A stretch of DNA of 64,000 nt from Maricaulis salignorans (GTDB taxonomy: Bacteria > Pseudomonadota > Alphaproteobacteria > Caulobacterales > Maricaulaceae): NCBI RefSeq assembly GCF_900103475.1, contig NZ_FNHG01000004.1:62001-126000 (forward strand). The letters run 5' to 3'. Positions 5,619 through 32,497 of the stretch are shown here, one piece after another. Positions within the stretch are counted from its first letter, which is position 1. Every line of letters begins with the position of its first letter. The translations under genes and the position numbers were made by a program. The notes under the pieces are model-generated. The model did not search any database. It was not told where the DNA came from and saw only the letters and a program-made list of their open reading frames with translations.

Positions 5619-7001
5619 CTAATTCCAGGGTGTTAAATCAAAGTTAGGGAAGCCCGAACCTTCCGGCTCGCCTGCCACATCATAGATTTCAACATTGAGC
5701 CCCATCCGATCGGCGGACAGCAGTCCCATGGCCTGGAGCAGGCGATAGCCCGCGACGTAGGAATCACGTTCCGCGGTCACCAAAAGCAGCCGCGAGGCCA
5801 GCAATTCCTGTTCAGCATCAAGCACATCAAGCGTTGTTCTCAAGCCGACATAGGCTTCCTGCTCGACACCATCGAGCGCGATCTCATTGGCTCGGACCGC
5901 CTGACGGCTCGACTCGATCACCGCCTGGGAGGTGATGTAGGCATTCCACGTATTCGTGACGCCTTCAGTGACCTGACGACGCGCCAGCAAGGTCTGCTGC
6001 CGGGTCTGGTCCTCCTGGGCGATAGCGGCACGCACGCGTGACCGATTCAACCCACCGGTGAAAAGCGGCACCGAAACCTGACCGACGATCGAGGTCGAAT
6101 CACGCTCGTCACCGGCATAGGAGGCATCGCGCGAACCGGATGCGGAGGCCGACAGCGTCACCTGCGGGCGCAGCGAGCTACGCGCCATCCGGATCGAATG
6201 GCTGGCGGCCTGCTCGCCATACTGGGCGGCCAGCAATTGCGGGCTGAAGCGATAGGCGGTCTCGGCGGCATCAGCGAGATTGTCCGGCAATTCAGGCAGT
6301 GCCGGCGGATCCTGCAATGTCGCCGGCGGCTGACCGGTCATGCGCTCATAGGCGGCACGGCTGGTCGCCAACTGGGACTGGGCGGAGGACAATTGAGCCT
6401 GGGCACCCGACAGGCGCGCCTCGGCCTGGGCCACATCCGTACGGGTGATCTCGCCGACCTCGAAACGATCACGGGCCGCCTGAAGGTGCTGGGCCAGCAC
6501 ATCGGCATTGCTACGGCGAATATTCACCACTTCGGAATCGCGCCGCACATCCATGAAGGCGGTAATTGCATCGACCAGAACGGTTTGCTCGACCGACCGA
6601 AGGGATTCGCGGCCGGCATAGATCAGCGCCGTCGCCTGGTCGACCGCACCGCCATTATAGCCGCCGCGATAGATCGATTGGCTGGCGGTCAGCGAATAAT
6701 TCTTCGGGGTGGAATCGCTCTCCGAGCTCCCGGCCAGCGGAGAGCCTGCGCCACTGACCGACTCGCTCTGCTGGGCGCTGATCGACGCGGAGGCCGAAAC
6801 TTGTGGCAAATAACCGGCCCGCGCCTGGATGCGCCCCTCATCGGTGGCGCGCAATCGCGCGCGCTCAGCCTGCAAGGTCGGGTTGGAGTTATAGGCCAGC
6901 GCCAGACTCTCTTCGAGACTCTGCGCCTGCGCCGCCGCTCCCATCGCCAGGAGCGATACGCAACCGGTCGCCGCCATTGCCCACAATTTCAAACGCGTCA
7001 T
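5619..7001 (-). CDS. tolC: TolC family outer-membrane efflux/secretion channel
   Basis: Outer-membrane channel of type I secretion and RND/ABC efflux systems. After an N-terminal signal peptide (hydrophobic to about residue 26, ending AQAQS) come the two TolC/OEP repeats, rich in long Ala/Gln/Ser heptads such as ARLSGAQAQLSSAQ and ANEIALDGVEQEAYVGLRT (the second repeat carries the usual VGxRTxxDVLDAE pattern). The 460-residue length is normal. The ATG at 7001 has a good AGAGGG site eight bases ahead, better than the TTG two codons upstream. No periplasmic adaptor or inner-membrane pump is adjacent, so its partners are encoded elsewhere. A TTGTAATGT motif and a palindrome lie about 110-130 bases upstream. 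Confidence 0.9.
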   Translation of the reverse strand: MTRLKLWAMAATGCVSLLAMGAAAQAQSLEESLALAYNSNPTLQAERARLRATDEGRIQARAGYLPQVSASASISAQQSESVSGAGSPLAGSSESDSTPKNYSLTASQSIYRGGYNGGAVDQATALIYAGRESLRSVEQTVLVDAITAFMDVRRDSEVVNIRRSNADVLAQHLQAARDRFEVGEITRTDVAQAEARLSGAQAQLSSAQSQLATSRAAYERMTGQPPATLQDPPALPELPDNLADAAETAYRFSPQLLAAQYGEQAASHSIRMARSSLRPQVTLSASASGSRDASYAGDERDSTSIVGQVSVPLFTGGLNRSRVRAAIAQEDQTRQQTLLARRQVTEGVTNTWNAYITSQAVIESSRQAVRANEIALDGVEQEAYVGLRTTLDVLDAEQELLASRLLLVTAERDSYVAGYRLLQAMGLLSADRMGLNVEIYDVAGEPEGSGFPNFDLTPWN

Positions 7002-8066: not shown

Positions 8067-8140
8067 GGCACCGTGGCGGAGTGGTTACGCAGCGGATTGC
8101 AAATCCGTCCACCCCGGTTCGATTCCGGGCGGTGCCTCCA
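8067..8140 (+). tRNA. tRNA-Cys (GCA)
   Basis: A 74-base cloverleaf with acceptor stem GGCACCG/CGGTGCC, D-loop AGTGGTTA, anticodon loop TTGCAAA (anticodon GCA at 8099-8101), TTCGATT T-loop and an encoded CCA end. Confidence 0.97.
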
Positions 8141-8226: not shown

Positions 8227-8583
8227 TCAAGGCTCTGAACGCACCACACCTGCGGCATCGGCTATCCCGGCCTTCTCAAGCTCGATATCGAGCCGCCCGG
8301 TGAGGAACATCACATACATCCGGAAATCCCCGATCAGAGACCAGAGCGGATAGGTGAAGGTCGCCGGCTTGTTACGCTCGACGAAGGCATGGCTGATCCA
8401 GGCGAAGAAATATCCTGCCACAGGAACGGCCAGCAAGGCCCACCAGGTCTGCGTCAGCACGGCGCCCACCAAGACCAGCACCGCCAGGGTCGAACCGACA
8501 TAATGCCAGTGCCGCGTCGCCGGCCTCGCATGCTCGCGCAGATAATAGGGCCAGAATGATTCGAAATTCTGATGTTCCCGCAT
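8227..8583 (-). CDS. DUF962/Mpo1-like membrane protein
   Basis: A 118-residue membrane protein of the DUF962 family. Yeast Mpo1 of this family is an iron-dependent dioxygenase in 2-hydroxy fatty acid alpha-oxidation. The conserved N-terminus EHQNFESFWPYYLREH, the HWHYVG histidines before the first membrane span, and SHAFVERNKPATF after the second span are visible. Two further hydrophobic stretches follow. The ATG at 8583 has a GGGGAG site eight bases ahead, so 13 codons of the longer frame are dropped. It is monocistronic. Enzymatic activity in bacteria is inferred from the family only. Confidence 0.8.
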   Translation of the reverse strand: MREHQNFESFWPYYLREHARPATRHWHYVGSTLAVLVLVGAVLTQTWWALLAVPVAGYFFAWISHAFVERNKPATFTYPLWSLIGDFRMYVMFLTGRLDIELEKAGIADAAGVVRSEP

Positions 8584-8752
8584 GTGATTCTCCCCGGAAT
8601 TGCCGTCACAGACCCTTATCACAGCCGGCCGGCCGAGCGGAAACCCGCTGCGTCATGGATAATTTGCACATAACGCAATAGGCCATATTTCCATGTATCG
8701 ATTAGGATTTCAGCAATCACACTAAACCAAATGCCAAATTTTGCCGCCAGAA

Positions 8753-8767
8753 TTAACCTGTTCTTAA
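8753..8767 (+). promoter_or_regulatory. Perfect CtrA-type box TTAA-N7-TTAA
   Basis: TTAACCTGTTCTTAA matches the alphaproteobacterial CtrA consensus (TTAA, seven bases, TTAA) exactly. With roughly 37 % A+T a perfect match is expected about 0.1 times in 64 kb, so chance is possible but unlikely. It lies in the gene-free stretch 8584-8964, about 25 bases ahead of the candidate small RNA and about 170 bases upstream of the divergent DUF962 gene. Which transcript it controls is inferred. Confidence 0.5.
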
Positions 8768-8789
8768 GGGATTTTGGGCGATTTTGCTC

Positions 8790-8863
8790 CTGTCTTCCCG
8801 TGAAGACACCCCACCATCCACCCAATGCCTTTTCGGGAGCCCAGACGGCTCCCGATTTTTTTT
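8790..8863 (+). ncRNA. Candidate small RNA downstream of a CtrA box
   Basis: The gene-free stretch 8584-8964 ends a + strand transcript with a strong intrinsic terminator although no + strand gene lies between tRNA-Cys and that terminator. A plausible RNA of about 72 bases would start near 8790. It would carry a 5' hairpin (GTCTTC 8792-8797 with GAAGAC 8802-8807), an unpaired C/A-rich linker (8808-8833, with ACCCCACC and CCACCC) and the terminator hairpin. The perfect CtrA box at 8753 sits about where an activator of this promoter would bind. C-rich single strands can pair with Shine-Dalgarno sequences. Start site and function are inferred; no frame of coding quality is present. Confidence 0.45.
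8834..8863 (+). terminator. Intrinsic terminator of the candidate small RNA
   Basis: A perfect 8-bp stem CGGGAGCC/GGCTCCCG (8834-8841 and 8847-8854) with a five-base loop is followed by ATTTTTTTT. The opposite strand has no T-run, so it terminates + strand transcription only. It also shields tRNA-Asn from upstream read-through. Confidence 0.85.
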
Positions 8864-8945
8864 GCCTGCGAATAGCAGAGCAATTGCAGAACTCTGGCAG
8901 CAACGCGCTTGCCACCTCCGCAAAAGCTCTGATATACGCGCCGTC

Positions 8946-9053
8946 TCGCTTGCGAGAGAGATGTTCCCCGGTAGCTCAGTTGGTAGAGCAAGCGGCTGTT
9001 AACCGCTTTGTCGCTGGTTCGAGTCCGGCCCGGGGAGCCACTCTCGCAAGCGA
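8946..9053. repeat. 13-bp inverted repeat bracketing tRNA-Asn
   Basis: TCGCTTGCGAGAG (8946-8958) is the exact reverse complement of CTCTCGCAAGCGA (9041-9053). The right arm begins at the base after the encoded CCA and the left arm ends six bases before the mature 5' end. The precursor would therefore form a 13-bp helix extending the acceptor stem. A processing role is inferred. Confidence 0.8.
8965..9040 (+). tRNA. tRNA-Asn (GTT)
   Basis: A 76-base cloverleaf with acceptor stem TCCCCGG/CCGGGGA, D-loop AGTTGGTAGA, anticodon GTT at 8998-9000, T-loop TTCGAGT and an encoded CCA end. It is bracketed by a perfect inverted repeat. Confidence 0.97.
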
Positions 9054-9063
9054 CTATATCCCC

Positions 9064-9801
9064 TCACTCCCCTGTCCGCGCCTCGAGCCGCCCGTCAAAC
9101 GCACGCGCCGCCTCGAAGAAGCGCTTGCGCAGCGATGCGGCATAAGGGTTGAGCTGCTCGATCGCCTGGAACAGGTCATCACTGTCATTGCGCACCAGAT
9201 CCGTCGCCTGGCGCAGCAGATCATAGCTTTTGGTGGTGTAGGGCGGTGGCGGGATATCCAGTTCAGCGATCACGCGCGAGACCAGATGGGTGAGCGCCTG
9301 CACATTCGCCATGGCGCGGTCATGCGTGTCCGGGTCGGACAGATGCACCTCCAGCCCCAGTCCCTCGCACAGCGCCGCGACCGGCGCGGCATCAACCCCG
9401 GTATCCGGACACAGCACGATGGACTGCCCGGCCAGGCCTTTCGCCGCGCTCTGTGGCCCGAACAGCGGATGCGTGCCGATAATGCGCACGTGCGCGGGCA
9501 GCCATGCGCGCATCGCCCGCATCGGCTCGACCTTGACCGAAGCGACATCGAGCACCAGCGCCCCCTCGGGCAGGAAGGGCGCGATATCCTGGCAGGTCTG
9601 CTCCAGCGCCTGCACCGGCACGGCCAGCACCACAACCGGGCATGCGGCCGCCGCCTCAAGGCGCACCCGAACAAGACCGGGCAGCTCCGCGGCCTGTGGA
9701 TCATGGCCAAGCAAGTCGAAATGCGGCGCCAGATGCCCGGCGGCGAATCGGCCAAACGCCCCCAGCCCGATCATGCCGATCTGTTTGCGGTCTTCAGCCA
9801 A
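9064..9801 (-). CDS. tyrA: Prephenate/arogenate dehydrogenase-like protein
   Basis: NAD(P)-dependent dehydrogenase of tyrosine biosynthesis. The Rossmann motif GMIGLGAFGRF begins at about residue 9. It is followed by the TyrA signature around residues 85-115 (VLDVASVK, then IGTHPLFGP with the catalytic-region histidine). At 245 residues it is shorter than most TyrA proteins (about 280-310), with a reduced C-terminal dimerisation domain, so a specialised or arogenate-type enzyme is possible. The start is TTG with a strong GAGGGG site ten bases upstream; no in-frame ATG fits. It lies 73 bases downstream of the SET-domain gene, perhaps co-transcribed, although no functional link is evident. Confidence 0.78.
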   Translation of the reverse strand: MAEDRKQIGMIGLGAFGRFAAGHLAPHFDLLGHDPQAAELPGLVRVRLEAAAACPVVVLAVPVQALEQTCQDIAPFLPEGALVLDVASVKVEPMRAMRAWLPAHVRIIGTHPLFGPQSAAKGLAGQSIVLCPDTGVDAAPVAALCEGLGLEVHLSDPDTHDRAMANVQALTHLVSRVIAELDIPPPPYTTKSYDLLRQATDLVRNDSDDLFQAIEQLNPYAASLRKRFFEAARAFDGRLEARTGE

Positions 9802-9874
9802 TCTGCATTCCCCTCAACTGCCAGCGCGATTGAACGGGATTTCCGGCACCGCGGCCAGCGCGATTGCCTGCGCC

Positions 9875-10549
9875 TCAGATATGGTGCGTTGTCGCCCCGC
9901 AATTGCAGGCGAAGCCACCGACAATCTCGCCCTCATTCTCGATATAGTCGAAATTCACTTCCGAGCCGGCGCGAATCGCCTGCCGGGCACGCAATAGGGG
10001 CCGTGCCGGATCGGCAGCGTCGATGACGCTGTTGGCCTCACAGCAATGATTGATATAGCGCAGATAGCCGGTGGGTTCGCAGTGGACATCATCGGTAATG
10101 CGCGCGGAATGTGGCGTCTGGACGCTCGTCATCTCGCCGCGGATAACGGTAATCACATCGCCCGCCGCCAGATCGCGCTGCGCGAACACGCCATGCCCAT
10201 GGATCGCACTGGTCTGGATCGCGACGCGGGCATCATATTCCGCCATGAAGGCCGCCGGAGCCCCCGCAGCATCGCCAAGCCCGACACGGCGGCCGGACAG
10301 GACGAGTTCCCCCTCGCCGCGCTCAATCACCCGAAGGTCAAGGATTGCAGTGGCAGCGCCAACCGCGCCCAGTTCGGCAATGAAGCCGTCTTCATTGCCA
10401 CTGCGGCTGCGCAAATGGGTCGTAACTCCACCCGCGCCCAGCCCTGTGACCTGCCCCATCCACACATCGCCCTGACGGCGAAGCTCGATCCATTCAAACA
10501 CACGACCGCTATCACCCGGATAACTGGCCAGGAACTCACCAACACGCAC
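9875..10549 (-). CDS. SET domain protein, putative lysine methyltransferase
   Basis: A 224-residue protein whose C-terminal half is a SET domain. Visible motifs are HGHGVFAQRDLAAGDVI (SAM-binding entry, about residues 117-133), YINHCCEAN (the NHxCxPN-like motif, about 165), EVNFDY (about 200) and a post-SET-like CNCG near the end. The N-terminal 100 residues match no family I recognise. Bacterial SET proteins are scattered and their targets mostly unknown. The GTG start has an AGGAG site seven bases ahead. It could methylate a ribosomal or DNA-binding protein, but that is speculation. Confidence 0.75.
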   Translation of the reverse strand: MRVGEFLASYPGDSGRVFEWIELRRQGDVWMGQVTGLGAGGVTTHLRSRSGNEDGFIAELGAVGAATAILDLRVIERGEGELVLSGRRVGLGDAAGAPAAFMAEYDARVAIQTSAIHGHGVFAQRDLAAGDVITVIRGEMTSVQTPHSARITDDVHCEPTGYLRYINHCCEANSVIDAADPARPLLRARQAIRAGSEVNFDYIENEGEIVGGFACNCGATTHHI

Positions 10550-32422: not shown

Positions 32423-32497
32423 GGGCGATTAGCTCAGCGGGAGAGCACCTCGTTCACACCGAGGGGGTCACTGGTTCAATCCCAGTATCGCCCACCA
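32423..32497 (+). tRNA. tRNA-Val (CAC)
   Basis: A 75-base cloverleaf with acceptor stem GGGCGAT/ATCGCCC, D-loop AGCGGGAGA, anticodon stem CCTCG/CGAGG with loop TTCACAC (anticodon CAC at 32455-32457), T-loop TTCAATC and an encoded CCA. It reads the GUG codon. Confidence 0.96.

Follow-up and report, generated by a model that had tools for sequence, protein, structure and literature searches.

A probable CtrA-controlled small RNA gene ahead of tRNA-Asn in Maricaulis salignorans and its relatives

CtrA, as master regulator, governs the asymmetric cell cycle; to our knowledge, few small RNAs stand under its control. In a 64,000-nt stretch of Maricaulis salignorans DNA (the window), a perfect CtrA box, a short hairpin, a C-rich linker and an intrinsic terminator follow one another on the plus strand ahead of tRNA-Asn. 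This arrangement raises the question of whether they form one small RNA (sRNA) gene, and of how its RNA would act. Sequence comparison makes it very probable that the stretch is a genuine sRNA gene and that CtrA controls it.

Layout of the locus and its putative promoter

The features of the locus, in positions of the window, were:

8067-8140, plus strand: tRNA-Cys, on the other side of the RNA from tRNA-Asn
8227-8622, minus strand: left-hand ORF, divergent from the RNA (ORF list of the window)
8753-8767, plus strand: CtrA box TTAA-N7-TTAA, TTAACCTGTTCTTAA, spanning the -35 position (-39 to -25 of the predicted start)
8780-8785, plus strand: -10-like hexamer GATTTT, with A at -11 and T at -7 (column conservation, 119 non-redundant loci)
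8792-8863, plus strand: predicted small RNA of about 72 bases, from the first G of the hairpin to the T run
8792-8807, plus strand: 5' hairpin GTCTTC-CCGT-GAAGAC (folding, and pairing in 50 loci)
8808-8832, plus strand: single-stranded C-rich linker, the proposed pairing segment, with core ACCCCACCAT at 8808-8817
8833-8863, plus strand: intrinsic terminator, stem TCGGGAGCC/GGCTCCCGA and T run (two-sided changes in 9/9 pairs)
8907-8938, plus strand: probable separate promoter of tRNA-Asn, CTTGCC-19 bases-TATACG (hexamer scan; weak, with long spacing)
8965-9040, plus strand: tRNA-Asn, the constant downstream neighbour of the RNA

The perfect box that an earlier note on this DNA had placed at 8753-8767 was found there; no other perfect match to TTAA-N7-TTAA occurs in the 64 kb. 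The note was right to call it rare and understated how rare: it had expected about 0.1 per window, and dinucleotide shuffles gave a mean of 0.01 (match in 1 of 100 shuffles). A plus-strand scan also gave four CtrA-like sites that deviate from the perfect box at one position; they lie at 5633, 27424, 43425 and 61272 of the window.

The distance between box and RNA was fixed among relatives. A box with at most one mismatch began 38-40 bases 5' of the hairpin G in all of the first 30 relatives, and 37-42 bases 5' of the hairpin in 116/116 evaluable loci among the 117 named loci listed (no mismatch in 84, one in 32; a contig end cut the box of one). With loci chosen by BLAST or covariance model, it was at the expected place in 66/68, a count from which L181 was left out, its upstream side being cut by a contig end; the exceptions were L188, with a perfect box closer, at -34, and L200, with two mismatches. 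Random windows of the same loci reached one mismatch or fewer in about 0.2%. After removal of redundancy, 118/119 loci carried the box with at most one mismatch, and CtrA itself was present in 25/25 genomes searched. A conserved TTAA-N7-TTAA at the putative promoter is what would be expected of a member of the CtrA regulon.

Among the 119 non-redundant loci, and with the hairpin G counted as +1, position -11 was A in 87% and position -7 was T in 76% (the promoter count started from 218 loci, with 14 off-pattern loci, including L189, and 5 near an end left out). These are the two best-kept letters of the bacterial -10 hexamer, and the start was therefore placed at 8792, the first G of the hairpin. 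This start, the box at -39 to -25 and the terminator together thus delimit one unit of about 72 bases. The -10-like letters and the fixed-distance box, both comparative evidence, would give the sRNA gene a promoter of its own.

Two further observations concern the upstream region. GANTC, the CcrM methylation motif, occurred between box and start in some lineages (e.g., L022, L023, L025, L116, L125), and was present in 32/119 non-redundant loci in the last 30 bases, versus 14 in the preceding 30 and 24 in the 40 before those. Positions 8692-8751, 5' of the box, had 73% mean identity and 19/60 invariant columns within Maricaulis, around ATAAACCAAAT; this conserved stretch may contain a second regulatory site.

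Conservation, distribution and structure of the RNA

A blastn search with 8700-8900 matched 36/61 genomes (the window's own included), among them all 18 other Maricaulis genomes. Across the 19 Maricaulis genomes (window included), columns +1 to +50 from the hairpin G were all invariant (50/50), whereas the 58 bases past the terminator had no invariant column (0/58; 48% mean identity); the terminator loop had none either (0/5). Since the whole cassette is conserved in relatives, its occurrence is far beyond chance.

Covariance model R1 (17 loci) detected the RNA in 220/299 genomes of the order at E ≤ 0.01, and model R2 (66 loci) in 250/299 at E ≤ 1e-4, corresponding to 233/267 good genomes and 49/54 genera, with a single match in all but a few. 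Model R1 was built on alignment A2, with 17 of the 30 loci of alignment A1, which had misaligned some 5' hairpins; alignment A4 replaced A3, which held three weak reverse-strand matches, and the sources L084, L091 and L141 were also left out. Many of the 49/299 genomes of the order with no match at E ≤ 1e-4 belonged to one diverged family (f5), in which detected copies were also weak. Class-wide, 46/385 genomes had a match at E ≤ 0.01, and 18 at E ≤ 1e-8, of which four belonged to the order and the other 14 to six families beyond it. Most of the class-wide matches weaker than 1e-8 were taken for chance, including about 26 between 1e-5 and 0.01 that were treated so as a group, not one by one.

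A pattern scan of named genomes gave at least 117 stretches. The 80 titled matches listed were all from alphaproteobacteria or labelled only Proteobacteria or Pseudomonadota, and included Phenylobacterium, Caulobacter, Hyphomonas, Hirschia, Glycocaulis, Woodsholea, Robiginitomaculum and Rhizomicrobium, the last belonging by taxonomy to the order Micropepsales. Against Rfam 15, only three tRNAs of the window reached the gathering threshold and the RNA matched no family; distant blastn against a plasmid collection, from which records near the window's genome were perhaps excluded, gave no match. Within the family to which the window belongs, copies L196, L198, L208 and L213 had diverged furthest, with an altered 5' stem (e.g., GTCTCC/GGGGAC) or an altered core (ACCCCAATTT in L213); all four kept the box with at most one mismatch despite the altered RNA.

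The hairpin at 8792-8807, the C-rich linker and the terminator (CGGGAGCC...GGCTCCCG, then T to 8863) lay where the earlier note had drawn them. The strand from 8785 to 8870 folded at -26 kcal/mol versus a mean of -14.7 for shuffled sequences (z -4.26; 0/200 shuffles as good). Alignment A5, with 50 loci that came from BLAST or model searches, had 98.4% of its cells over the structure paired, although it was fitted to the covariance model, a bias toward the structure. The 5' hairpin had 99.0% of cells paired and two-sided changes in 2/6 pairs (e.g., G-C to A-U in five sequences); the terminator had 97.9% of cells paired and two-sided changes in all nine pairs. The covariation score was 0.66 versus 0.18 for shuffles, 0/500 of which were as high. 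Eleven pairs changed on both sides, a bare count reached by 88/500 shuffles; on the other four measures none reached the observed value. Most A4 loci came from a pattern that fixed the 5' stem, so A4 counts were uninformative on that stem and A5 gave the fairer pair count.

Over 140 distinct RNAs, the 14 linker bases examined had a mean unpaired probability of 0.96, and 137 of the RNAs exceeded 0.7. The core was far more constant than the stems, with variation between ACCC and ACCCC among lineages and only CCC in some Caulobacter copies; the length of the hairpin loop also differed between lineages. Stem and T run form an intrinsic terminator, as in sRNA genes, and the conserved structure would be that of a non-coding RNA. 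With eight T, the run is compatible with an Hfq-dependent sRNA. The conservation and covariation that the earlier note had asked for were thus found, with stem and linker kept in relatives. Its proposal that the stretch is an RNA gene in its own right, about 72 bases long and with a promoter of CtrA type, is supported, at the level of sequence, by the box counts, the -10-like element and the covarying terminator. Comparison among relatives accordingly supports the predicted gene, its borders, its structure, its fixed CtrA box and its -10-like element.

Proposed mode of action and rival explanations

The locus is probably a free-standing, CtrA-controlled sRNA gene whose core, ACCCCACCAU, would pair in trans with mRNAs. 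CtrA bound at -39 to -25, across the -35 position, would control the sRNA promoter, most likely by activation. The transcript would run from about 8792, where the 5' hairpin has its first G, to the terminator at 8863, a length of about 72 bases, with its ends protected by these two structures. The unpaired linker would then pair through its core with mRNAs in trans, and a gene set would thereby be tuned while CtrA is active. Production of the RNA, CtrA binding and activation, linker-mRNA pairing and timing are all predictions here. Pairing in trans is the most likely mechanism by analogy, because other sRNAs that end in a terminator have a conserved single-stranded segment.

Candidate targets were sought with the 11-base sequence complementary to the linker core, GGRTGGTGGGG, which occurred at 65 places in the 19 Maricaulis genomes versus 27 for the backward control; one place per genome is expected to be the RNA itself (G002 had only that one). 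No gene-start site recurring across the genus was found among the 30/65 places inspected. When 13 genomes were searched with two patterns tied to ATG, the first yielded 32 places versus 15 for the control (30 inspected) and the second 24 versus 7 (24 inspected). The excess speaks for sites close to ATG, but could be explained entirely by a ribosome-binding site upstream of the ATG, and no genus-wide target was found among the inspected places. As to recurrent ATG-tied places, three were antisense to tRNA genes and six of the second pattern (L328, L329, L343, L346, L347, L349) shared one sequence, presumably 23S rRNA. That shared stretch, in five Maricaulis genomes, bears ATGGTGGG, an 8-base complement of the core, and the complementarity could be due to chance. 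One pattern place was shared by genomes G011 and G012; there it lies close to the beginning of a frame for a membrane protein. In L298 and L302, from two Maricaulis genomes, the core-complementary TGGTGGGGT lay within the first dozen or so codons of a probable membrane-transporter frame.

Duplexes of the linker with Maricaulis leaders were predicted at -14.6 to -18.0 kcal/mol for ctrA and -16.4 to -20.4 kcal/mol for gcrA, no better than the background of 64 ORF starts of the window (median -18.0, best -30.7 kcal/mol). In other genera, with the Maricaulis linker used throughout, values extended to -24.8 (ctrA) and -23.4 kcal/mol (gcrA), inside the strong tail of the control. A gcrA value of -27.5 kcal/mol came from a row with a wrong start. 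Leader ends were guessed for both genes. For ctrA, L256 (one of 25 loci) was left out; for gcrA, the simple rule gave wrong starts in L274, L288 and L291, and L278 was off by two codons. Because the Maricaulis ctrA and gcrA leaders sit around the background median, they lend no support to a CcnA-like feedback on CtrA, which may exist all the same. The suggestion in the earlier note that the linker could pair with ribosome-binding sites thus gained no conserved target, and found these two leaders at background.

The same target searches bear on an unlikely alternative, in which the RNA pairs with no mRNA and instead titrates an RNA-binding protein, for instance an enzyme of tRNA processing, through its core ACCCCACCAU, which resembles an encoded tRNA 3' end. 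That the core is much more constant than the stems would suit such a role, as would the outcome that no conserved complementary mRNA was found in the Maricaulis target searches, and the tRNA-Val of the window ends in GCCCACCATTT. The likeness covers only about eight letters and may be chance, however; some lineages have ACCC instead of ACCCC, and no protein is known to fit. The neighbouring genes speak to two further explanations. Were the element a leader or attenuator of tRNA-Asn, the box would drive a tRNA transcript and the terminator would set read-through. This agrees with the presence of tRNA-Asn downstream on the same strand within 1.5 kb in 107/117 named loci listed, or 107/108 evaluable ones (nine of the ten listed loci lacking it have less than 600 bases of contig left, and only L149 is truly without). 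The distance from RNA to tRNA-Asn varies from about 130 to more than 1200 bases, whereas that from box to RNA is fixed, and an invariant linker would be left unexplained. Promoter-like hexamers in the 60 bases before tRNA-Asn scored 7.87 on average (149 loci) versus 6.61 for shuffles; the tRNA therefore seems to have its own promoter, which suggests that it is served from there, and the leader explanation is very unlikely.

It is more improbable still that the box serves the left-hand gene and that the RNA-like element is merely a terminator. In the window this gene (8227-8622, minus strand) is near and divergent, but its family and orientation vary between lineages while box, -10-like element and RNA stay together. 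Because the left-hand protein gene differs in this way, the box was assigned to the RNA; moreover, an invariant hairpin and linker would not be expected of a mere terminator. Hardly credible at all is a small protein encoded by the stretch. ORFs do run across it, and one on the plus strand (8731-10026) crosses the RNA, continues through tRNA-Asn and runs antisense to a 245-aa minus-strand ORF (9064-9801). The start codon is not kept, however (AATGCC in Maricaulis, AACGCC or other letters elsewhere), the variable loop length and the change between ACCC and ACCCC would shift any frame, and conservation tracks the stems and the linker.

Some details of the tRNA genes stand beside these comparisons. 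tRNA-Cys lay upstream within 1.5 kb in 57/117 named loci listed. Two tandem tRNA-Asn copies followed the RNA in L205 and L207 (two genomes of genus g28). The RNA core ACCCCACCAT (8808-8817) resembles an encoded tRNA 3' end, and the tRNA-Val of the window (32423-32497) ends in GCCCACCA, then T; this likeness would be a weak lead for protein titration.

For the free-standing sRNA gene, a wider and more tentative proposal, which we hold possible though short of probable, is that the RNA is an ancestral and nearly universal part of the CtrA circuit in the Caulobacter order and some neighbouring families, as its post-transcriptional arm. The RNA is as a rule single-copy per genome, with a CtrA box and a practically frozen single-stranded core. 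If the proposal is true, each cell cycle in these bacteria, Caulobacter among them, would see the RNA act on mRNAs that they have in common, or on a single common protein. With a near-invariant core and a fixed CtrA box across the order, a conserved post-transcriptional arm of the CtrA circuit becomes directly testable.

Relation to described RNAs

The Cuckoo / CcsR sRNAs of alphaproteobacteria are short, with a C-rich, anti-Shine-Dalgarno-like segment and the CCUCCUCCC motif. The present RNA is likewise short with a C-rich segment, here in a linker and not in a loop; CCUCCUCCC was absent from 8792-8863, and membership was rejected. ncS16 (RF02866, Burkholderia sRNA 16) has a CACCAU segment before its terminator, as the present RNA does. 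It was the best sub-threshold match on the RNA side (23.7 bits versus a threshold of 48, E = 0.015), and the RNA was not assigned to it.

GspR is a name that we take to denote an sRNA of Sinorhizobium meliloti. In the accessible parts of PMC4414408 and PMC5928217, EcpR1 and GspR of that species are trans-acting sRNAs on cell-cycle genes. By description they resemble the present RNA as alphaproteobacterial sRNAs tied to the cell cycle; they differ in belonging to the Rhizobiales, and CtrA regulation through a fixed box is not described in those parts of the two papers.

The closest RNA in concept is CcnA (CCNA_R0094) of Caulobacter crescentus, which, according to the available portions of PMC8959179 and PMC5988900, is a non-coding RNA with upstream CtrA boxes, and whose C-rich single-stranded part (CCCC, Loop A) is said to bind GGGG in leaders. 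Non-coding nature, an upstream CtrA box and a C-rich single-stranded part are common to both as far as these portions describe CcnA. The excerpt of PMC4287350 gives CcnA 182 bases and transcription from within the origin of replication; by these descriptions the present RNA, with about 72 bases before tRNA-Asn, was set apart from it. In further difference from CcnA, some Caulobacter copies of the present RNA have only CCC. Its predicted pairing with the Maricaulis leaders of ctrA and gcrA lay at background.

A literature search of accessible main texts, by sequence stretches and by topic, found no description of the RNA, for which a CCNA_R listing is possible. It was not named in PMC7595951, nor in the accessible parts of PMC11005374, PMC4117421 and PMC5172544. 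For a laboratory strain of Caulobacter crescentus, PMC7595951 and PMC4287350 mention Rend-seq, 5' RACE and CtrA ChIP-seq data. The present RNA was filed, from its sequence features, as a new sRNA gene of a known kind, very probably under CtrA. The part of PMC5988900 available tabulates 42 Caulobacter RNAs, and that of PMC4287350 has six non-coding RNAs among the starts that are bound by CtrA and regulated in the cell cycle; a Caulobacter homologue of the present RNA may be among these six.
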